NCBI RefSeq assembly: GCF_000144645.1
Contig: NC_014377.1
Location: forward strand, 1,612,001 to 1,676,000
Reading direction: 5' to 3'
Origin: Thermosediminibacter oceani DSM 16646
GTDB lineage: Bacteria; Bacillota; Thermosediminibacteria; Thermosediminibacterales; Thermosediminibacteraceae
Length of the DNA: 64,000 bases
Shown: positions 3,827 to 53,802 of the stretch, piece after piece
Layout: each line of letters begins with the position of its first letter
How positions within the stretch are numbered: position 1 is the stretch's first letter
The notes under the pieces: generated by a model
Told to the model about the DNA's origin: nothing
The model's input: the letters and a program-made list of their open reading frames with translations, nothing else
The model's database searches: none
Program-made: the position numbers and the translations under genes

Positions 3827-4705
3827 TTAGTCTTTCTTAGAGCCGGGGGTGTCTTTAATATCACTCCAGCAAGTTCTGGTGTAATGGAAAAGGTACTGCT
3901 GAGCGAACCCGGCGAGTGGGCCGAATCTATTTTCCGCAAACTCCTGCAGTTTTTTTACCGGCATTTCCCTGCCGTCAAAATAAAGGTGCTCCACAACCCT
4001 TTTTATCCATACGTCTACCGGGAAGGCGTCGAATTTCCGCAGGGAAAAAAGCAGCACGCAGTCGGCTATCTTCCGCCCTACTCCGGGGATCTTCATGAGA
4101 TAGTCTCTTGCTTCGCCGGTGGGAAGCTTCTCCAGTTCGTCCAGGACGATGTCGCCACCGGCGACCATCCTGGCCGCTGCAATCACGTACTTGCCCCTGA
4201 AACCGCAGCGGGTATCTCTGATCTGGGCTTCCGATAAAGAAGCCAGCACTTCCGGGGTGGGAAAAGTATAGTAGATTTCTCCCTCAAATTCCACAGGAGT
4301 TCCGTAACAGCTGCACATCCGCTCTATCGTCCGCTTTATATTAGGTATGCTGTTGTTGGCTGAAAGGATAAATGAAATCAGGGTTTCCCATGGTTGTTGG
4401 TGGAGTATGCGGTTACCGCTGCAGAACTTTACCGCTGGTACCAATTCGTCGAAACCGCTGAGCTTATCCTCGATCTCCCGGTAATCTCTTTCCAGGTCAA
4501 AATAATCCCGAATAAACCCGATCGAATCATTACCGCCGTTGGTAAATATCCTTAGGGTATCTTCCTCCTGGTAGGCCTTTATCACCAGGTTACCGACCAC
4601 GCCCAGGTAACCCCCGTCTTCCAGCCTGTTCCAGCGGAAGGCCTGACCGCTTTCGGCTATCGCTTCCAGGTTGAAAGGTTGAATGCCTGTAAATGTTATC
4701 TCCAA
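3827..4705 (-). CDS. OGG1-type 8-oxoguanine DNA glycosylase/AP lyase
   Basis: Base-excision repair enzyme predicted to remove 8-oxoguanine and nick the abasic site. The 292-residue protein has the OGG N-terminal domain (GQAFRW near residue 20, as in the G-Q-x-F-R-W family motif), the SANNSIPNIKRTIERMC segment matching the OGG1 asparagine-rich motif, then the helix-hairpin-helix IPGVGRKIADC holding the catalytic Lys, and FPVDVWIKR holding the catalytic Asp. No Fe-S cluster cysteines follow, as expected for OGG1 rather than EndoIII or MutY. Monocistronic, convergent with the IS remnant region. Confidence 0.9.
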   Translation of the reverse strand: MEITFTGIQPFNLEAIAESGQAFRWNRLEDGGYLGVVGNLVIKAYQEEDTLRIFTNGGNDSIGFIRDYFDLERDYREIEDKLSGFDELVPAVKFCSGNRILHQQPWETLISFILSANNSIPNIKRTIERMCSCYGTPVEFEGEIYYTFPTPEVLASLSEAQIRDTRCGFRGKYVIAAARMVAGGDIVLDELEKLPTGEARDYLMKIPGVGRKIADCVLLFSLRKFDAFPVDVWIKRVVEHLYFDGREMPVKKLQEFAENRFGPLAGFAQQYLFHYTRTCWSDIKDTPGSKKD

Positions 4706-4881
4706 CGCTGTTTCCCCTCTCCGAATAAAATGTAACCGCTTTTAAAATTACACCGCTGGACAAGCATAATAGCTCCCACTAGTAATTTTTCTACGGCTAT
4801 TGCCCTTTTCCTGCTCCCGTTTCAAGATTTGCCGAAAATCACCGTCAGAGGGCTATACATGCCATTAGACTAATAACCGAA

Positions 4882-4922
4882 CTAAAAAAATAACCCGAGG
4901 GTGTAGGGTGCACCCTCGGGTC
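4882..4922 (-). terminator. intrinsic terminator of the ileS-nitroreductase unit
   Basis: CCCGAGGGTG (4894-4903) pairs with CACCCTCGGG (4911-4920); read leftward the stem is followed by TTATTTTTTT. Confidence 0.85.
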
Positions 4923-4927
4923 AGATT

Positions 4928-5428
4928 TTATTCGTATTTTTCCCACTTCAGCACTTCCGACAGCGGCTTCTTGGGCGGATTCGGCGTCTTATCAGAGTAT
5001 CCCAGGGGTACCAGCGAGATAAGTTCGTATTTTTCGGGCACCCCCAGTAACCTCCTGACCTCATCGCTGTAAGGCCTCCTGTATCCCGCCACCCAGCAGG
5101 AACCGATACCGTAAGCTTTAGCTGCCAGTATGATATTTTCGGTAGCAGCCGAACCGTCTTCCACAGCGTGGTTGTTGTCCTTTTCGCAGAACACAGCCAC
5201 GCAGGCGGCGGCATCGGCGATAAACTTCCCCCAGGTTGCGAGCCGGGCCAGTTCCTTTTTGCCTTCTTCGTTGGTTACTACCACGAATACCCACGGTTGA
5301 ACGTTGTTGGCCGATGGAGCAAGCCTTGCGCAATCTACGATGTCCTCCAGGATTTCCCTGGGTATGGGTCTGGCTGCATATTGCCTTATACTTCTTCTTT
5401 CCTTTAAGACCCTGATCGTTTCATTCAC
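4928..5428 (-). CDS. nitroreductase-family FMN oxidoreductase
   Basis: A short (about 166 residues) member of the nitroreductase family, FMN-dependent NAD(P)H oxidoreductases acting in the cytosol on nitro compounds or quinones. It shows the family start RRSIRQYAARPIP, the APSANNVQPW FMN-binding region, and a C-terminal GYRRPYSDEVRRLLGVPE segment. It begins 2 bases after the ileS stop in the longest frame (GTG at 5437); the inner GTG at 5428 is better spaced from the AGGTG site. It is probably co-transcribed with ileS and shares its terminator. The physiological substrate cannot be read from sequence. Confidence 0.85.
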   Translation of the reverse strand: MNETIRVLKERRSIRQYAARPIPREILEDIVDCARLAPSANNVQPWVFVVVTNEEGKKELARLATWGKFIADAAACVAVFCEKDNNHAVEDGSAATENIILAAKAYGIGSCWVAGYRRPYSDEVRRLLGVPEKYELISLVPLGYSDKTPNPPKKPLSEVLKWEKYE

Positions 5429-5438
5429 AGCCCTCACC

Positions 5439-8400
5439 TCACGCTTTTTTTACTCCAAGCAACGCCCCGTGCCCGTTTATATCCCACTCCCTGGCAAAGC
5501 TGTCTTCCGGCGGGGCGGCTTTTTCGATGGAAATCGCCAGCGTATCGCCTTTAATCTCCCCTCCGTGGACGTCCATGGCTTCATCAATTACTGCGTCACC
5601 CTGGTAATAGACGTATATTTTATCTTCTACTTCAAATCCGGCTTCCTTCCTCATGTTCTGTATTTTGCTGGTGAGCTCCCGGGCTATACCTTCCAGCACT
5701 AGTTCGTGGGTAATCGTTGTATCGAGCACCACGTAGTAGCCCCCTTCTCCCTCGGTGCAGAACCCTTCTTTGTCCTGGGCTCTTATATCGAGATCGTCCT
5801 GGGTCAGCTTTACCTCCTGCCCTTCTACCGTCAGGACTACCTCGCCCTTTTCTCTGGCTTCCCTGATCAATTCGGCAGCATTGGCCTTAGAAATTTCCCG
5901 GGCAATAGCAGGCATGAGCTTACCGTATTTGGGCCCCAGCAGGTCGAAACGGGGCTTTAGCATGTAGGTAAAGTACTGTTCGGCCATGTGGATATACTCG
6001 ATTTCTTTTATATTCAGCTCTTCTTTGATAATATCGGTCAGATCTTTTAAAAGCTCTTCATCGTTGGGATTCCTCAGCTGGACCATCATTCTCGAAAGGG
6101 GCTGGCGGTTCTTGATTTTAGCCTTGTTCCTGGCAGCCCTTCCTAATTCCACGATCTTGCGCGCCAGCTCCATCTTGTGCTCCAGTTTTAAATCGATAAG
6201 CTCCTCCCTTACCTCAGGGTAGTAGCAAAGGTGTACGCTCTCCGGCGATTCGGGATAAGGCACTCTCACCAGGTTCTGGTAAAGTTCTTCGGTGATAAAC
6301 GGCACGAAGGGAGCCGCTATCTTTATGAACTCCACCAGCGCTTCGTACAGTGTGAGGTATGCTGCGATTTTGTCCTGGTCCATTTCGGATTTCCAGAACC
6401 TTTCCCTGCACCGGCGGACGTACCAATTGCTCATATCGTCTACCAGCTCTTCCAGGGCCCTGGCTGCAGTAGTTATATCGAATCCGTCCAGGCATTTCCT
6501 TACTCTCCTGTTGGTGCTGTTTACCCTGGACAGAAGCCAGCGGTCCATTTCGTGCCTGGATTTCGGATCCAGCGAATGTTTTCTCGGGTCGAAATTGTCG
6601 ATACTGGCGTAAAGTGTAAAGAAGGAATAGATGTTCCACAGGGTGCCCAGGAATCGCCGCTGGGCTTCGCTTACAGCCTCTTTGTAGAAGCGGCTGGGGT
6701 TCCACGGAGGACTTGCCACGTAAAGGTACCAGCGCATGGCGTCGGCACCCTGCTCGTTCAGGATCTCCCACGGGTCCAGCACGTTACCCTTGTGTTTGCT
6801 CATCTTCTGCCCGTACTGGTCCAGCACGTGCCCCATTACCAGTACGTTTTTGTAAGGCGAATCGTCAAACAGCAGAGTAGATATCACAAAGAGGCTGTAG
6901 AACCATCCCCGGGTCTGGTCGATGGCCTCGGATATGAAATCCGCCGGGAAATGGGTTTTAAAGGTCTCTTCGTTTTCAAAGGGGTAGTGGAGCTGGGCGA
7001 AAGGCATCGAGCCCGAATCGAACCAGCAGTCTATGACCTCGGGCACGCGCCTCATATCGCCGCCGCAGCCGGGGCATTTTAATACGACTTCGTCAACGTA
7101 GGGCTTGTGCAGTTCTATATCTCCCAGCGGCAGCTTGCTCATCGCCTTCAATTCCTCTATACTGCCGACGGCGTGCTCTTTGCCGCATTCCTGGCATATC
7201 CAGATGTTGAGCGGCGTTCCCCAGTAGCGCTCGCGGCTCAGACACCAATCTATGACGTTTTCAAGGAAATTGCCGAAGCGGCCGTCCCTTATGTGCTCCG
7301 GATGCCAACCTATCTTCCGGTTTATCTCCAGGAGCCTGTCTTTAATAGCTGTTGTCTTGATAAACCAGCTGCTGCGGGCATAGTATAAAAGCGGCGTATC
7401 GCAGCGCCAGCAAAAAGGATATGTGTGCAGGTACCTTTCAGCCTTGTACAGAAGCCCCCTCTGCTTCAGGTCTTTTATGATGCCTTTATCGGCGTCCTTT
7501 ACGAATACCCCGGCCCAGGATTCCACCTGTTCTGTAAACCTTCCCTGGGCATCTACGGGCTGTAATACCGGCAGTCCGTGCTTCTGTCCCGTCCTGTAGT
7601 CGTCCTCGCCGAAGGCCGGCGCCATGTGCACGATTCCGGTGCCTTCGTCCATCACGACGAAATCCGCGGTGACCACATAAAAGGCTCTTTCCCTCTCGTT
7701 TTCAAAGAACGGGAATACGGGCCTGTACTTAACGCCGGAAAGTTTTTCGCCCGTGAACTTTTCCAGGACGGTGTATTCCCCATCCAGGACGCTCAGCCTT
7801 TCTTCAGCAAGTATGAGTTTTTCGCCGTTATGCTCAACCTTTACGTAGGTGGAGTCTCCTTTTACTGCCAGGGCTGCGTTGGAAGGCAGCGTCCACGGAG
7901 TAGTGGTCCATACAAGGAAATAAGTATTTTCTTCTCCCTCCAGCGGGAACTTCACAAATACGGATGGGTCTTCGACCTCGTCGTAACCCTGGGCTACCTC
8001 GTGGCTGGACAACGATGTCCCGCACCTGGGGCAGTAGGGCACAACTTTGTGACCTTTATATAGAAGACCCTTCTCCCAGATTTTTTTCAAGGCCCACCAC
8101 ACCGATTCGATGTAGGTGTTGTGGTAGGTGACGTAAGGGTTCTCCATGTCGATCCAGAACCCTACCCTCTCGGTCATCCTCTTCCATTCCTGTTCGTAGG
8201 TAAAGACGCTATTTTTGCATTTCTTTATGAACTCTTCCACTCCGTATTCCTCTATCTGGGGTTTCCCGCTGATTCCAAGCTGCTTTTCAACTTCCAACTC
8301 CACCGGAAGCCCGTGGGTATCCCACCCGGCTTTACGGTCGACCCTGTACCCCATCATGGTCTTGTACCTGGGGATCAAGTCCTTGACGACCCTGGTCAGC

Positions 8401-15523: not shown

Positions 15524-16333
15524 TTATCCCACTAGCCCGGTATATACGAGTATAAGCATGATTACTCCTGCGACGATCCTGTAATACGCAAAAGATTTTA
15601 AGGAATGCTTGGTAAGGTACGCCAGAAATCTGTCCACCGCCAACAGGGCCACCAGGAAGGAAACGACAAATCCCACGCCTAAAGCCTGCCACTCCGCGGG
15701 AGTTACGGCGGAAAATCCCTTCATCAGTGAAAAGGCGGTGGCTCCCAGCATGGTGGGGATGGCCAGAAAAAAGGAAAACTCCGCGGCGGCTTTCACGGAT
15801 AATCCTGCCGCCATACCGCCCATTATTGTGGAAGCGGAGCGCGACATGCCGGGAAACAGTGAAAGGCACTGGGCAATCCCGACGATCAGCGATTTCCCGG
15901 CATCCATATCATCCACGTCGTTTATACCGTAACGGCCGAAGACGTTTTCGGCTAATATCATGAGAAAACCGCCGGCTATGAGGGCAATAGCTACCGTAAA
16001 AGATGAAAACAGATACTCCTCAATATAATCATTAAGCAGCACTCCGGCTATGGCCGACGGGAAAAATGCTATCAAAATATTGAGCCAGAAACGAAACCCC
16101 TTTTGCCCCGGAGAAAGCTGCCTCAGGGAGCTCGCTATTCTCTTCCTGTAATAAAACACCACTGCGAGTATTGCGCCGAGCTGTATCACTATATCAAACA
16201 TTATGTGGAAGGGGCTACCCTTAAAACCTATCAGGTCACCGGCAATAATTAGATGGCCCGTTGAGGATACGGGCAGGAATTCGGTCAGACCTTCGACTAT
16301 TCCCATGATGACTGCTTTAAGCAAAAGCGGCAT
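15524..16333 (-). CDS. uppP: undecaprenyl-diphosphatase (BacA/UppP)
   Basis: Polytopic membrane enzyme that dephosphorylates undecaprenyl diphosphate, recycling the cell-wall lipid carrier; its loss or gain alters bacitracin sensitivity in relatives. The 269-residue sequence has the two family motifs EGLTEFLPVSSTGH (residues 14-27) and PGMSRSAST (near 160), with about eight hydrophobic helices. It ends just ahead of a terminator and lies 2 bp downstream of the phosphoribosyltransferase gene, so the two are probably one transcript. Confidence 0.95.
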   Translation of the reverse strand: MPLLLKAVIMGIVEGLTEFLPVSSTGHLIIAGDLIGFKGSPFHIMFDIVIQLGAILAVVFYYRKRIASSLRQLSPGQKGFRFWLNILIAFFPSAIAGVLLNDYIEEYLFSSFTVAIALIAGGFLMILAENVFGRYGINDVDDMDAGKSLIVGIAQCLSLFPGMSRSASTIMGGMAAGLSVKAAAEFSFFLAIPTMLGATAFSLMKGFSAVTPAEWQALGVGFVVSFLVALLAVDRFLAYLTKHSLKSFAYYRIVAGVIMLILVYTGLVG

Positions 16334-24827: not shown

Positions 24828-25460
24828 CTATAAGGTGTAATTCTTGCAGTCAAGCTTTTCTTCAATATCTTTTATCTCTTTCTTTATTTCTTTCAGGCCG
24901 AAATCCTTGTTGTCAAGTTTGTCTTCGATATCTTTTATCTCCTTCTTTATTTCCTTTAATCCAAAATCCTTGTTGTCAAGTTTATATTCGATTTCTTTTA
25001 TCTCCTTCTTAATTTCTTTTAAGCCGAATTTGTCATCATCGAGCTTTTTCTCTATTTCCTTTACTTCTTTCTTAATTTCTTCTAAGCCGAAGTCTTTGCT
25101 GTCAAGTTTATCTTCGATATCTTTTATCTCTTTCTTAATTTCCTTTAGGCCGAATTTATCATCATCGAGTTTTTTCTCTATATCCTTTATTTCTTTCTTA
25201 ATTTCTTTTAAGCCGAAGTCTTTGTCGTCCAGTTTTTTCTCTATATCTTTAATCTCCTTCTTTATTTCCTTCAAGCCGAACTTTTTGTTCAAGAGCAGGG
25301 CGATTATTGCTAAATCGAAGGTAGAAACTTTGGCGCCTTCGTCTGATTCCAGCTCGCCTACGAGTCCGTCAACAAATTGATCTATACTATCAAGGCCTTC
25401 AACGGATTCCAGTTGTTCAAATTTATCTATTAGCTTTTTTAACAGTTCAGTTTTTGTCAT
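24828..25460 (-). CDS. coiled-coil protein with seven 21-residue repeats (copy A)
   Basis: Not a recognised family. A 210-residue acidic/basic protein: a unique N-terminal domain of about 65 residues (MTKTELLKKLIDKFEQLES, FDLAIIALLLNKK), then seven tandem repeats of 21 residues beginning FGLKEIKK and ending with LD plus a variable tripeptide (DKD, DDK, SKD, NKD). Hydrophobic residues at repeat positions 3, 6, 10, 13 and 17 give three heptads per unit, so a long coiled coil is expected. No signal peptide or membrane segment is seen, so it is probably cytosolic. The ATG at 25460 is common to both copies; GAGGGGG lies 12 bases upstream. A closely similar gene is at 41134-41835. Confidence 0.75.
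   Translation of the reverse strand: MTKTELLKKLIDKFEQLESVEGLDSIDQFVDGLVGELESDEGAKVSTFDLAIIALLLNKKFGLKEIKKEIKDIEKKLDDKDFGLKEIKKEIKDIEKKLDDDKFGLKEIKKEIKDIEDKLDSKDFGLEEIKKEVKEIEKKLDDDKFGLKEIKKEIKEIEYKLDNKDFGLKEIKKEIKDIEDKLDNKDFGLKEIKKEIKDIEEKLDCKNYTL
24840..25280 (-). repeat. 63-bp tandem repeats inside coiled-coil gene A
   Basis: About seven units of 63 bp, each encoding one 21-residue block. Neighbouring units differ at silent and tripeptide positions, so the array is old enough to have diverged but is still prone to slippage. Confidence 0.8.
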
Positions 25461-25511
25461 ATCTTTGATAATCCCCCTCTTTGTTGTTTTATTGTTTTGT
25501 TTTTCTACTGT

Positions 25512-25542
25512 ATAATATGAACATACCAACAAAAATGTTCAT
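25512..25542 (-). promoter_or_regulatory. dyad operator/promoter of coiled-coil gene A
   Basis: Read leftward, ATGAACAT-N10-ATGTTCAT (25517-25542) is a perfect 8-bp dyad whose inner edge touches a -10-like TATTAT (25512-25517). The same arrangement precedes copy B. No good -35 hexamer is visible where expected; the dyad covers it. Confidence 0.6.
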
Positions 25543-31769: not shown

Positions 31770-31828
31770 AACTTGTCGTCGACCTCCGGTACTGCAAAAA
31801 CCCCCGGGGGTCGACGACAAACGCGAAT
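31770..31828. repeat. inverted repeat upstream of the CRISPR array
   Basis: TTGTCGTCGACC and GGTCGACGACAA form a 12-bp exact stem, with CCGG and CCCCCGGGGG in the loop region. It is GC-rich inside very AT-rich sequence. The rest of 31,100-31,770 shows no convincing gene. Confidence 0.75.
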
Positions 31829-31951: not shown

Positions 31952-32968
31952 GTTCTTAGTCTACCTATAAGGGATTGAAACAGAAATAATAATCGAATAA
32001 CCTATCATTATTATGAGTTCTTAGTCTACCTATAAGGGATTGAAACCCGACCGTTTTTCCGCCTGATGGATTTTCACTTCTTCGTTCTTAGTCTACCTAT
32101 AAGGGATTGAAACCATGGACAATAAGAAAGAGCTAATTGCAGAAATTATGTTCTTAGTCTACCTATAAGGGATTGAAACCCAGCTGCGAGAAGCGATTAA
32201 GGCGGAGAAGGACAGTTCTTAGTCTACCTATAAGGGATTGAAACAGGGTGTATTTGCTTCGCCTTCTATGGCGACTAACCTGGTTCTTAGTCTACCTATA
32301 AGGGATTGAAACATGAAATGGGATTCATTACGCCAGCAATCAGCTCAGGGTTCTTAGTCTACCTATAAGGGATTGAAACACATGGCATTAGCAACGTCTA
32401 TGATTGAGAGCCCGAGTTCTTAGTCTACCTATAAGGGATTGAAACCTTGTATATCTCGCACCTGCCGCCTACCGCATAGGGGTTCTTAGTCTACCTATAA
32501 GGGATTGAAACTTATAAGGCAGGAGTATTCGCCGCTCACCAAAGGTTACGTTCTTAGTCTACCTATAAGGGATTGAAACACACAAACCTCCCCCGCTTCG
32601 AGCAGGGTGCATTCAGCGTTCTTAGTCTACCTATAAGGGATTGAAACTACAGCCGCCACATCGCCTCTTTTTGCCCCGCTATACGTTCTTAGTCTACCTA
32701 TAAGGGATTGAAACCCAAAAGATAGCCCTACAATCTGGTCTGTAAACAAAGTTCTTAGTCTACCTATAAGGGATTGAAACAAGCGTTCTTTAAGACTACT
32801 AGCTTGAATATCTAACCGTTCTTAGTCTACCTATAAGGGATTGAAACAACTCTTGCTCTTTCATAGGCATCTACTCCTTGAAGAGTTCTTAGTCTACCTA
32901 TAAGGGATTGAAACCTCACAACGGATTGAAAAAAGTTTGCCGCTACCCAAGGTTCTTAGTCTACCTAT
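31952..32968 (+). CRISPR. CRISPR array, 15 full repeats plus a split 16th
   Basis: The repeat is 30 bp, begins GTTCTTAGTC and ends GGATTGAAAC. Full copies start at 31952, 32017, 32084, 32150, 32215, 32283, 32350, 32416, 32482, 32550, 32618, 32685, 32751, 32818 and 32885 and look identical by eye. Spacers are 35-38 bp (15 in all). The 16th repeat at 32952 stops after its first 17 bases, where an IS110-family element begins; its second half reappears at 34550-34562. The ATTGAAAC ending is the 5' handle of crRNAs in many type I-B and III systems. No cas gene lies in the window, so adaptation and interference proteins must be elsewhere or absent. Confidence 0.98.
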
Positions 32969-33078
32969 CCTGAAAATAATGATCCGCAAAAAGGCAATAA
33001 AAAACTAAGCCCATACATAATTTAAAAATATGGGATAAATCCTGAGCTTAATGTGCGTAATAACAAATCTCAAAATAG

Positions 33079-34299
33079 TTAAGACACTATCGTTTCGACC
33101 GTAACCTTCAACCCTAAAGACTCAAGCTTCTTCAAAGACTGCCGGATGACCATATTGCGCCTTTTCTCTTCGTAAAAATTCGGACCTAATTCAATATAAG
33201 GTTGCTTACGCTTGAGAATATGATAAACTATAGTTAGGATGCTGTTAGCTACCGCAACAGCTGCTCGATTCGATCCTCTTCGGGCAGCGATGCGGTGGTA
33301 TTGACTTGAAAGATAAGTATCTTTTGCTCTGGAGGCGGCCCGGGCAGCTTCTACAAGAGCGCTACGCAACTTCTTGTTTCCCTTTCGGGTCCTGGCGGAC
33401 TTTCGTTTACCGGCGCTTTCATTCTGACCTGGACACAGCCCCGCCCATGAACACAAATGAGCGGCGGAGGGGAACTGATCCATATTGGTTCCGATTTCAG
33501 CAATTATCTGTTCGGCAGTCCTTCTTCCCACTCCTGGAATCGTATCCAGCAGTGCCAGGTCCTCTTCAAAAGGGAGCATTCGATTTTTAATTTCTTCATC
33601 CAATCTTTCTATTTCTTCATCGAGGTAATCAATATGTTTTAGCTTTATTTCCAGCATCTTTCTCTGGTGATAATTAATAAATCCTTTTAAAGCGCGCTTT
33701 AGATCTTCCTTTTTATTCTTTAACTTACCATGAGAAAGCTCTGCCAGGATTTCGGGGTCATCTACACCGCTGATGAGAGCTTCCAGTATAGCACGGCTGG
33801 ACATGCCGTTAATATCGGAGACCACCGAAGACAGCTTGATATTGGCTCCTTCAAGCACTTTCTGGATGCGGTTAAGCTCCCTTGAGCGCTCTTCAACAAG
33901 GCCGTGCCTGTAACGGACAAGTTCGCGAAGCTCCCTTTGCTCTCTGTCGGGGACGAAGCTGCCTTTCAAAAGGCCGTGGCGGAGTAGACTAGCAATCCAT
34001 TCAGCATCCTTGACATCGGTTTTTCTGCCAGGCACATTTTTAATATGCTTTGCATTGACAAGTAGAATCTTCAAATTCTCAAGCTCCAGCAGGTTGTAGA
34101 TGGGTTTCCAGAAAGAACCGGTGCTTTTCATGGCGACGACAGTACATCCTTTGTTTTTAATGAATTCCTTTAAGGCGAACAGGTCATCGGTCATAGTTGA
34201 AAAAGAGCGAATTTCCTTACCATCGGGAGTAATTACACAAGCCACGACGCTCTTTTTATGAACGTCCAGGCCGCAGACGTGAGAATACACTACATCCAT
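33079..34299 (-). CDS. IS110-family transposase with altered DEDD motif
   Basis: RNA-guided recombinase family: N-terminal RuvC-like DEDD domain and C-terminal Transposase_20 domain with a catalytic Ser. Seen are GLDVHKKS (first Asp), KTDVKDAEW (third and fourth Asp), [21 protein letters not shown] and the [17 protein letters not shown]-terminal motif holding the candidate Ser. The usual M-E-(S/A)-T-G is here AMKSTGSFW: the catalytic Glu is replaced by Lys (codon AAA, one transition from GAA). Length 406 residues is normal. AAGGAG lies upstream of the ATG. The substitution suggests the copy may no longer move by itself. Confidence 0.93.
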
Positions 34300-34313
34300 A
34301 AAAGCAACTCCTT

Positions 34314-34480
34314 AGCGGCTTTAATATTGAAGGGCTGGTGCAACAACCATAAATAGTTATTCTATCCTTCGTGCTTCCCGTAACGGGAGCAACAATCTGT
34401 GGTGCACCTGGTCGTTGGGGTCTGTCTATAAGTCGGGCTCGAAGCACCAAGGTAAGAACGACCTGCCTTCGCCAGCCGCT
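34314..34480 (-). ncRNA. candidate IS110 bridge RNA
   Basis: Read leftward from 34480. A terminal stem AGCGGCT (34480-34474) pairs with AGCCGCT (34320-34314), giving 167 nt. A target-type loop is closed by GGTCGTT/AACGACC (34463-34457 with 34416-34410); inside it TACCT (34454-34450), an internal hairpin and CTTATAG (34432-34426) match the two sides of the CRISPR insertion site around CT. Further along, AGGATAG (34368-34362) is complementary to the element's own left junction CTATCCT (32965-32971), as a donor guide would be. Order (target loop then donor loop) and position fit known IS110 bridge RNAs. Found by eye only. Confidence 0.65.
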
Positions 34481-34486
34481 ATACTG

Positions 34487-34495
34487 ATTATATCA
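34487..34495 (-). promoter_or_regulatory. extended -10 promoter for the candidate bridge RNA
   Basis: Read leftward, TGATATAAT (TG extension plus consensus TATAAT, 34492-34487) would start transcription near 34480, where the terminal stem begins. No consensus -35. Confidence 0.6.
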
Positions 34496-34549
34496 TGAAA
34501 GTGCATTTTCATCCTCTGATGGTGCCGCTTTTGCGGCATGGGAGTCTAT

Positions 34550-34562
34550 AAAGGATTGAAAC
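34550..34562 (+). repeat. second half of the split terminal CRISPR repeat
   Basis: AAAGGATTGAAAC matches the last 13 bases of the CRISPR repeat with one G-to-A change, directly following the right end of the IS110-family element. Confidence 0.85.
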
Positions 34563-40917: not shown

Positions 40918-41055
40918 ATATTATACCATTAATAGCCAGGTCATAGTAGCACCTTCTCCCAATTATCCGGCCTTTGCCATCCTGTTCGGCTTTTTGTCAG
41001 GAGATTGCCATATTTGTCCAGACTGAAGTGGGATTTTTTTATCCCTTTGTGGGCT

Positions 41056-41086
41056 ATGAACATTTTTGTTGTTGTGTTCATATTAT
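41056..41086 (+). promoter_or_regulatory. dyad operator/promoter of coiled-coil gene B
   Basis: ATGAACAT (41056-41063) and TGTTCAT (41075-41081) form the same dyad as upstream of copy A, touching TATTAT (41081-41086). One arm has lost one base pair of symmetry. Confidence 0.6.
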
Positions 41087-41133
41087 ACAGTGGAAAAACA
41101 AAACAGCAAGAAAAGAGGGGGATTATCAAAGAT

Positions 41134-41835
41134 ATGACAAAAACTGAACTGTTAAAAAAGCTAATAGATAAATTTGAACAACTGGAGTCCGTTGAAGACC
41201 TTGATAATATAGATCAATTTCTTGACGGATTCCTCGGTGAACTAGAAACCGCCGGAGACGCTCAAATTTCTAGCTTCGATTTAGCGGTAATCGCCCTGCT
41301 ATTGAACAGAAAGTTCGGCCTGAAGGAAATAAAGAAGGAGATTAAAGATATAGAGAAAAAGCTGGATGACAAAGACTTCGGCTTAAAAGAAATTAAGAAA
41401 GAAATAAAGCATATAGAGAAAAAACTCGATGATGATAAATTCGGCCTAAAGGAAATTAAGAAGGAGATAAAAGATATCGAAGATAAACTTGACAGCAAAG
41501 ACTTCGGCTTAGAAGAAATTAAGAAAGAAGTAAAGGAAATAGAGAAAAAGCTCGATGATGACAAATTCGGCTTAAAAGAAATTAAGAAGGAGATAAAAGA
41601 TATCGAAGATAAACTTGACAACAAGGATTTTGGATTAAAGGAAATAAAGAAGGAGATAAAAGATATCGAAGACAAACTTGACAGCAAGGATTTCGGCCTA
41701 AAGGAAATAAAGAAGGAAATAAAAGATATCGAAGACAAACTCGACAACAAGGATTTTGGCCTGAAAGAAATTAAGAAAGAGATAAAAGATATTGAAGAAA
41801 AACTTGACCGCAAGGATTTCATCTTTGAGAAATAA
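41134..41835 (+). CDS. coiled-coil protein with eight 21-residue repeats (copy B)
   Basis: Paralogue of the gene at 24828-25460, in the opposite orientation 16 kb away. 233 residues: the same N-terminal domain (TELLKKLIDKFEQLESVED; LDGFLGELET; FDLAVIALLLNRK) and eight tandem 21-residue units starting FGLKEIKK; the fourth unit reads FGLEEIKKEVKEIE in both copies, so the first four units correspond one to one and one unit has been gained or lost after them. The final unit ends LDRKDFIFEK. A cytosolic parallel coiled coil is expected. Function unknown. Confidence 0.75.
   Translation: MTKTELLKKLIDKFEQLESVEDLDNIDQFLDGFLGELETAGDAQISSFDLAVIALLLNRKFGLKEIKKEIKDIEKKLDDKDFGLKEIKKEIKHIEKKLDDDKFGLKEIKKEIKDIEDKLDSKDFGLEEIKKEVKEIEKKLDDDKFGLKEIKKEIKDIEDKLDNKDFGLKEIKKEIKDIEDKLDSKDFGLKEIKKEIKDIEDKLDNKDFGLKEIKKEIKDIEEKLDRKDFIFEK
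41311..41815 (+). repeat. 63-bp tandem repeats inside coiled-coil gene B
   Basis: Eight units of 63 bp, one more than in copy A. Confidence 0.8.
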
Positions 41836-52578: not shown

Positions 52579-53802
52579 ATGTTCTATGGCGGTATTGATG
52601 TGGCTAAACACAGTCACGAAGTATGCCTCGTAAACGACTCCGGTGATATAGTCTTAAAAATGCATCTAGACAATAACCATAAAGGAATGAATAAGCTTTT
52701 GCAGGCATTGGAAAGACTCGGTTTAAAGCCTGATGACGTAAAGTTCTGCTTAGAGGCTACCGGCCATTACTGGCTCCCTATCTACTGCTACCTCACTAAC
52801 CAGGGATTTGAACTTCATGTCATCAATCCCATTCAGTCGGATGCTTTGCGGAATCTCTATGTGCGTAAAACTAAAACCGACCAAAAAGATGCTCTGCTCC
52901 TTGCTGACTTGCTGCGATTGGGAAGAGCCCCCGAGACCAGACTCCCTTCCGAAACAACCCTCAAATTGCAGTCGCTCTCCCGACTCCGCTTTGAGTTCGT
53001 ACGCCAGGTCGGTGGCCTTAAGAACAGGGTGCTTGGTATTTTGGATAGGATTTTCCCTGAATACCCAGACTGCTTCTCCGATGTGTTTATCCGGACTTCA
53101 AGGGAGCTGCTTAAATCTTACCCGGAGCCGGAAGAATTAGCCGAAGTGGACCTTTCAGAGTTATCTGCTTTCCTGAAAGAACATTCCCGCGGTCGGTTCG
53201 GTGAAGAAAGAGCTAAAAAGATTCAATCTCTGGCTAAGGGGACCTTCGGTATCACCATGGCTTTAGACGCTTTCACATTACAGCTTCGTTTGTTGGTTGA
53301 GCAAATTGAATTTATTGAAGAACAGATAAAGGTTATTGAAGATGCAATTAACGAGGTTATGGAGGAGCTTCGTCCTAGTAAGGATACCCCTTATCGCCAC
53401 GTAATTGAAACTATTCCAGGTATTGGCCCTGTCCTGGCTGCCGCAATTATCGGTGAGATAGGTGATATTTCTCGTTTCCCTAACCCCCGGGCTCTCGTAG
53501 CTTATGCCGGTTTAGATGCTACAGTCAGGGCTTCAGGATTGTTTGAGGGTACTCGTAACCGTATGTCTAAACGCGGTTCCCCTGTTTTAAGAAACAGCTT
53601 GTGGTTAGCCGCTGTTTCAGCCCGCCGTTTTAACCCGGAGTTGAGGGCTTATTATGAGCAAAAACGCAGCCAGGGAAAGCACTCGAATGTTGCTACAGGA
53701 GCCGTTGCAAGAAAACTTGTTCACCTGATCTACTCTCTCTGGAAGGATAACCGGCCGTATGACCCGGATTATCAATGGTCTCCTCCCGGCAAAAATGCGT
53801 GA
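52579..53802 (+). CDS. IS110-family transposase, intact motif
   Basis: 407 residues. The DEDD tetrad is complete: GGIDVAKHSHE (Asp), CLEATGHYW (Glu), RKTKTDQKDALLLADL (two Asp). The C-terminal Transposase_20 domain has IETIPGIGPVLAAAIIGEIGD and GTRNRMSKRGSPVLR with the candidate catalytic Ser. Sequence similarity to the other IS110-type protein in the window is only at family level, so these are different elements. Probably active. Confidence 0.95.
   Translation: MFYGGIDVAKHSHEVCLVNDSGDIVLKMHLDNNHKGMNKLLQALERLGLKPDDVKFCLEATGHYWLPIYCYLTNQGFELHVINPIQSDALRNLYVRKTKTDQKDALLLADLLRLGRAPETRLPSETTLKLQSLSRLRFEFVRQVGGLKNRVLGILDRIFPEYPDCFSDVFIRTSRELLKSYPEPEELAEVDLSELSAFLKEHSRGRFGEERAKKIQSLAKGTFGITMALDAFTLQLRLLVEQIEFIEEQIKVIEDAINEVMEELRPSKDTPYRHVIETIPGIGPVLAAAIIGEIGDISRFPNPRALVAYAGLDATVRASGLFEGTRNRMSKRGSPVLRNSLWLAAVSARRFNPELRAYYEQKRSQGKHSNVATGAVARKLVHLIYSLWKDNRPYDPDYQWSPPGKNA

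Follow-up and report, generated by a model that had tools for sequence, protein, structure and literature searches.

Why does a transposon lie inside a CRISPR (clustered regularly interspaced short palindromic repeats) repeat of Thermosediminibacter oceani DSM 16646, and could an RNA of its own have directed it there? The question is posed by a 64,000-nucleotide (nt) stretch of contig NC_014377.1 (positions 1,612,001 to 1,676,000), here called the window, where an element of the IS110 insertion sequence family interrupts the 16th repeat of a CRISPR array. Judging from sequence comparisons, this is very probably an IS110-family transposon with a transposase of about 406 amino acids (aa) and an upstream RNA that would guide insertion into CRISPR repeats. 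The initial annotation, made from the letters of the window, had already proposed an RNA-guided transposon aimed at such repeats, and the proposal is upheld by guide covariation, by all four copies in the home genome and by a related genus. With high probability, insertion of the element is guided by RNA, and CRISPR repeats are the main target of its lineage; we infer the guidance from covariation and from homology to experimentally proven systems.

The interrupted repeat and its counterparts

The array (31952..32966, plus strand) was recognized by its direct repeats and by Rfam CRISPR-DR2 matches and comprises 15 intact repeats of 30 nt plus the left half of the interrupted one (32952-32966), which ends in the core dinucleotide CT (32965-32966). 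The element (32967..34545, minus strand) occupies the space between two CT cores, AG on its own strand, and its ends follow from an alignment of the four genomic copies and many relatives. On its other side, the right half of the repeat, CTATAAAGGATTGAAAC (34546..34562, plus strand), begins with the second core copy, and direct-repeat analysis found no repeats after position 34562. Near the left end of the element, a small hairpin, TGCCGCAAAAGCGGCA (34523..34538, minus strand), is conserved with compensating letters in relatives, as judged by eye; it lies between the core and the motif TGAAAAT, which recurs inverted as ATTTTCA near the right end. Both motifs, likewise read by eye, are conserved and stand at unequal distances from the core. 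Ahead of the array, a 17-bp inverted repeat (TTGTCGTCGACCTCCGG/CCGGGGGTCGACGACAA, 31773-31820) precedes the first CRISPR repeat by about 130 nt.

A search of the whole T. oceani genome recovered four copies of the element, two full and two truncated. All of them lie in CRISPR arrays, namely in four different ones whose repeats all differ (GTTCTTAGTCTACCTATAAGGGATTGAAAC; GTTACTAGCTTACCTATGAGGGGTTGAAAC; GTTTTTAGCTTACCTATGAGGGATTGAAAC; GTTTTTAGCCTACCTATAAGGGATTGAAAC), and all four repeats are cut at ...ACCTAT. The element has entered each of these arrays at its far end or close to it. Restriction to the leader-distal end is true, or nearly so, at home, and was dropped as a general rule because the genome G154 and T. 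wiegelii contain interior insertions. None of 806 spacers matched the element convincingly. Two near-identical IS3-like elements of 1.4 kb elsewhere in the home genome (L035, ~6148-7548; L037, ~4434-5868) lie in CRISPR spacers and not in repeats, in contrast to the repeat-specific element. Furthermore, a home-array spacer (L035, near 3047) shares 28 nt, in opposite orientation, with a spacer in the window array (32388-32415), so the two arrays seem to have sampled one source.

Counterparts of these insertions were tallied in 15 genomes from the same family and from Thermoanaerobacter. Ends with distinct flanks of 40-45 nt were counted, because a first tally had collapsed CRISPR copies with identical repeats. 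CRISPR repeats adjoin 29 of the 40 right ends and 17 of the 30 left ends of this clade. The base and the orientation are the same throughout, and the orientation is antisense to the presumed direction of the CRISPR RNA (crRNA), which we take to be the direction in which repeats end in ATTGAAAC. In G154, seven of seven right ends and seven of seven left ends lie in CRISPR, most of them within one long array, and insertions in Thermoanaerobacter also split arrays internally. No CRISPR array was present around the more distant relatives that were fetched (approximately 46-79% protein identity).

A T. wiegelii array contains, ahead of its interrupted repeat, a duplicated chimeric repeat of approximately 29 nt that consists of the first repeat half (GTTTTTAGCCTAC) followed by about 16 nt from the right end of the element; the copies lie 67 bp apart and are separated by a spacer of roughly 38 nt (L212, minus strand, 15540-15690; also L155 and L070). 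The impression from this single case is that a spacer was acquired once the element had entered the first repeat, which was then copied by length.

The upstream RNA, its guides and the transposase

The sequences quoted in the initial annotation were recovered at or near their predicted places on the minus strand, the same strand that encodes the transposase. They belong to a bridge or seek RNA (34314..34480, minus strand, 5' end near 34480) that is delimited by comparative structure and conservation and lies upstream of the transposase gene in all aligned relatives. Folding of the 167-nt stretch alone gave weak z-scores (-1.8 for the minus and -2.4 for the plus strand); since single-sequence folding neither discriminates between the strands nor proves an RNA, comparative structure was used instead, based on the well-aligned upstream noncoding ends of 39 diverse relatives. 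A four-helix structure pairs 96.3% of alignment cells, with changes on both sides in 12 of the 23 pairs; none of 500 shuffles reached its score, and slid controls dropped to 33-42%.

The outermost of the four conserved helices is GGCTGG/CCAGCC (34472-34477 with 34333-34338; 96.5% of cells paired). It replaces AGCGGCT (34474-34480)/AGCCGCT (34314-34320), which had been proposed as the closing stem: the letters are present, but conservation of the pairing is only partial (82% of cells); it was rejected as the conserved outer stem and may form as an alternative near the ribosome site. Inside, the predicted 7-bp stem GGTCGTT/AACGACC (34457-34463 with 34410-34416) closes the target loop and is paired in 89.7% of cells, mostly with one-sided changes; it is less strongly supported than the other helices when named structures are counted, and RNAalifold alone picked a different pairing around it. 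The hairpin anticipated between the two target guides, GGTGC..GCCCG (34434..34448), is paired in 100% of cells across the 39 sequences. A further hairpin, GTTGCTCCC..GGGAAGCAC (34371..34393), stands ahead of the donor guide with 98.4% of cells paired and double changes in four pairs. TATAAT (34487..34492, minus strand), located six bases ahead of the RNA 5' end, is a candidate -10 box that recurs in many relatives. An Rfam scan returned CRISPR-DR2 and no bridge-RNA family, from a library that does not hold the published bridge-RNA models.

Three guides can be read from this RNA. The 5' target guide CTTACCT (34450..34456), of which only the part TACCT had been noticed before, complements the top strand of the right flank in the orientation of the element, i.e., the left repeat half and core on the plus strand. 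The 3' target guide CTTATAG (34426..34432) reads identically to the left flank in that orientation and complements the core and right repeat half. The left donor guide AGGATAG (34362..34368) is identical to the right end of the element together with the core; its letters recur there at 32965-32971.

Matches as short as these might be due to chance, as the initial annotation cautioned; this concern is removed by relatives with other targets, in which the RNA positions change together with the flanks. For each relative, flanks and loop were extracted and the guide-flank matches were compared with shuffles. Across 59 distinct guides, the 3' guide agrees with the left flank at 4.39 of six noncore positions, compared to 1.93 after shuffling (z 17.6), and agreement at the five core-adjacent positions ranges from 66 to 92%. 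The complementarity of the 5' guide to the right flank is 3.00 versus 1.72 shuffled in 41 pairs (z 7.5), with a simple rule for the linker length that was picked after the data had been seen; fixed linkers of 1 or 2 give z 4.9 and 3.9. The donor guide matches the element's right end at 6.66 of seven positions versus 5.00 (z 16.4). These z values overstate the certainty because related sequences are not independent, while the signal itself is spread over many unrelated targets. In addition, in 57 of 64 distinct cases (38 expected), the left end begins with the two RNA bases that follow the core in the 3' guide; in the window RNA these are the bases AC.

Within T. oceani, the guides CTTACCT and CTTATAG, which share the core, pair with the repeat of each of the other three home arrays at 7 + 7 positions by Watson-Crick or G-U pairs, and the outermost 5'-guide position is unpaired against the repeat of its own array. 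Two positions that vary between A and G among the repeats both face U in the RNA. The corresponding 11-nt string YTACCTATRAG occurs 161 times in the genome, 160 times forward and once in reverse, compared to two occurrences of a reversed-pattern control, and a longer repeat pattern finds 158 repeats in a single orientation. Hardly any occurrence of the guide string in this genome thus lies outside CRISPR.

The transposase gene (33079..34299, minus strand) encodes a DEDD transposase/recombinase of 406 aa with the domains PF01548 and PF02371, recognized by Pfam and by alignments with relatives and IS621. The residues D12, E58, D95 and D98 are kept in intact relatives, and the C-terminal serine S295 is invariant in the alignment, in a region that also aligns with IS621. 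At the position of the catalytic glutamate in the IS621 alignment, all seven other aligned relatives have E58 and the window copy has K (E58K). A copy that is 97% identical retains E58 and matches the NCBIfam model 'IS110 family RNA-guided transposase'. The window copy is probably inactive because lysine replaces the catalytic glutamate and, as far as the sequence tells, probably a dead descendant. A second IS110-type transposase in the window (52591-53760, plus strand) is 28% identical and present in about six genomic copies. Apart from these, two related proteins with repeated KEIKDIE-type coiled-coil units are encoded on opposite strands (24828-25532, minus; 41005-41835, plus).

Proposed mechanism and competing explanations

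Under the proposed mechanism, the RNA would be expressed and form a complex with the DEDD recombinase that binds it. One loop would pair with both strands of the CRISPR repeat around the CT core and a second with the element's own right end, and the recombination chemistry would insert a circular form of the element at a fixed base of the repeat and always facing the same way. The guides would then actually select the CRISPR repeat by pairing, beyond the correlation described above, and since the variable A/G positions of the repeats face U, G-U wobble would allow one RNA to pair with several arrays despite their differing repeats.

Several observations weigh against this account. Apart from the E58K exchange in the window copy, a right donor guide was sought and not located, and about a quarter of the right ends in the clade lie outside CRISPR. 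The 3' guide CAAGTAG of G005 and G006 fits CRISPR poorly, yet one such copy is located in a CRISPR repeat. Most Thermoanaerobacter guides read CTCATAG and face their own CTATAAG repeats with a single C-A mismatch; the same guide fits the CTATGAG repeats of the other family perfectly. Such imperfect guides may reflect either mismatch tolerance, drift of the guide after insertion or action in trans of the RNA of another copy. The copies with guide CAAGTAG (L048, L045 8466-8736 and L039) share the same loop and are found both at ACAAGTAG outside CRISPR and within a CRISPR repeat, which suggests natural redirection or drift among close relatives. Identical loops at unrelated targets, regarded by the initial annotation as evidence against guidance, thus occur in a minority of copies, and the specificity is strong and not absolute.

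The exceptions lend some plausibility to the view that the guides do act but that CRISPR is merely a convenient high-copy landing site, with loose specificity and a guide that is not maintained for CRISPR. Arrays would then be over-represented because a genome offers more than 100 identical sites at which insertion is nearly harmless. Several relatives with imperfect guides, non-CRISPR copies with one matching half (the left flanks in L072 and L048) and the home insertions at or close to the ends of arrays, where they would do the least harm, would all fit this view. We nevertheless regard it as unlikely, albeit worth serious consideration, because, in the home genome, both guides fit one and the same repeat around a common core, this fit survives the variation across the four home arrays, and many insertions in G154 are interior.

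Spreading of the copies by homologous recombination between repeats or by array duplication, instead of targeted transposition, is highly improbable. Repeats do offer natural homology and some copies are truncated, but the spacers next to the ends differ, and the four home arrays differ in repeat sequence. Relatives with other guides at other matching sites moreover indicate that precise junctions do not require CRISPR homology. Finally, specificity determined by the protein or by the shape of the repeat, with coincidental guide matches, would agree with the preference of other IS110/IS1111 elements for repeated, partly palindromic sites, e.g., repetitive extragenic palindromic (REP) sequences and attC (PMC11208160, PMC11187229), but has hardly any probability left given that relatives with other loops sit at loop-matching sites (z 17.6 and 7.5) and that the same protein family has different targets.

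It is conceivable, and tentatively proposed here, that a distinct IS110 branch with upstream RNA and IS1111-like guide order includes a lineage whose guide is kept on CRISPR repeats, with wobble-tolerant bases that cover the variants of several arrays, and which has repeatedly interrupted the immune memory of its hosts in at least two bacterial groups. One RNA-guided system would be directed at the memory of another, and the interrupted arrays would represent natural experiments on CRISPR adaptation. The lineage also points to bridge recombinases, probably thermophilic, with a naturally repeated target.

Comparison with known systems

IS110 copies that split CRISPR repeats of Thermoanaerobacter, as well as an ATAG duplication in a T. 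italicus repeat, were reported in 2016 (PMC4852346). This is the same phenomenon in the same genus, but that paper dealt with broken arrays, predated the bridge RNAs and contained no guide, mechanism or specificity argument. RNA guidance would provide a testable mechanism for the published and unexplained abundance of IS110 in these arrays. A literature search found no link between CRISPR-repeat insertions of IS110 and a guide RNA; subscription papers and bioRxiv were mostly outside its scope, and priority is therefore unproven.

The window transposase is homologous to those of IS621 and ISCro4, whose RNA guidance has been proven experimentally (PMC11208160, PMC11208158). Shared with IS621 are the DEDD and PF02371 recombinase, the RNA upstream on the gene strand, a target loop with two guides that share the CT core, a donor guide matching the right end, and target-loop bases that match the donor beside the core in a handshake-like manner (PMC11208158). 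The protein is shorter in IS621 (about 326 versus about 406 aa), and its target is REP instead of a CRISPR repeat. The left and right target guides of the IS110-type arrangement suggested by the initial annotation are real, but their order relative to the element is the reverse of that in IS621. A control reading of three Escherichia coli plasmid copies of IS621 shows a 5' guide (ATCGGGCCT) similar to the left flank (ATCAGGCCT) and a 3' guide, GCGTAG, that is complementary to the right flank, CTACGC. Read in the direction of the transposase gene, the window family has the complement of the right flank in its 5' guide, and its 3' guide has the letters of the left flank.

The order found here is that of the IS1111 seekRNAs of ISEc11, ISKpn4 and ISPa11, with the complement of the top strand first and that of the bottom strand second (PMC11187229). 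In those elements, however, the RNA lies downstream of the gene (a few exceptions in RNA position have been noted; PMC11187229), the transposases have 330-350 aa, and subterminal inverted repeats of 7-17 bp are present; no clear long ones were seen in the window family, in which the TGAAAAT and ATTTTCA motifs might be short candidates. ISEc21 and ISMch6 of the IS110 branch (PMC11187229) resemble it in the upstream RNA and in natural redirection between close relatives and differ in the opposite guide order and a shorter protein (358 aa), while 406 aa is within the length range of the subgroup of IS110 itself (PMC11187229). Given an IS1111-like guide order together with an upstream RNA and 406 aa, the element was assigned to the IS110 family in the broad sense. 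Guide order is here uncoupled from RNA position, two traits that are largely linked in the IS110/IS1111 split, and the element is a variant that fits neither of the experimentally tested types fully.
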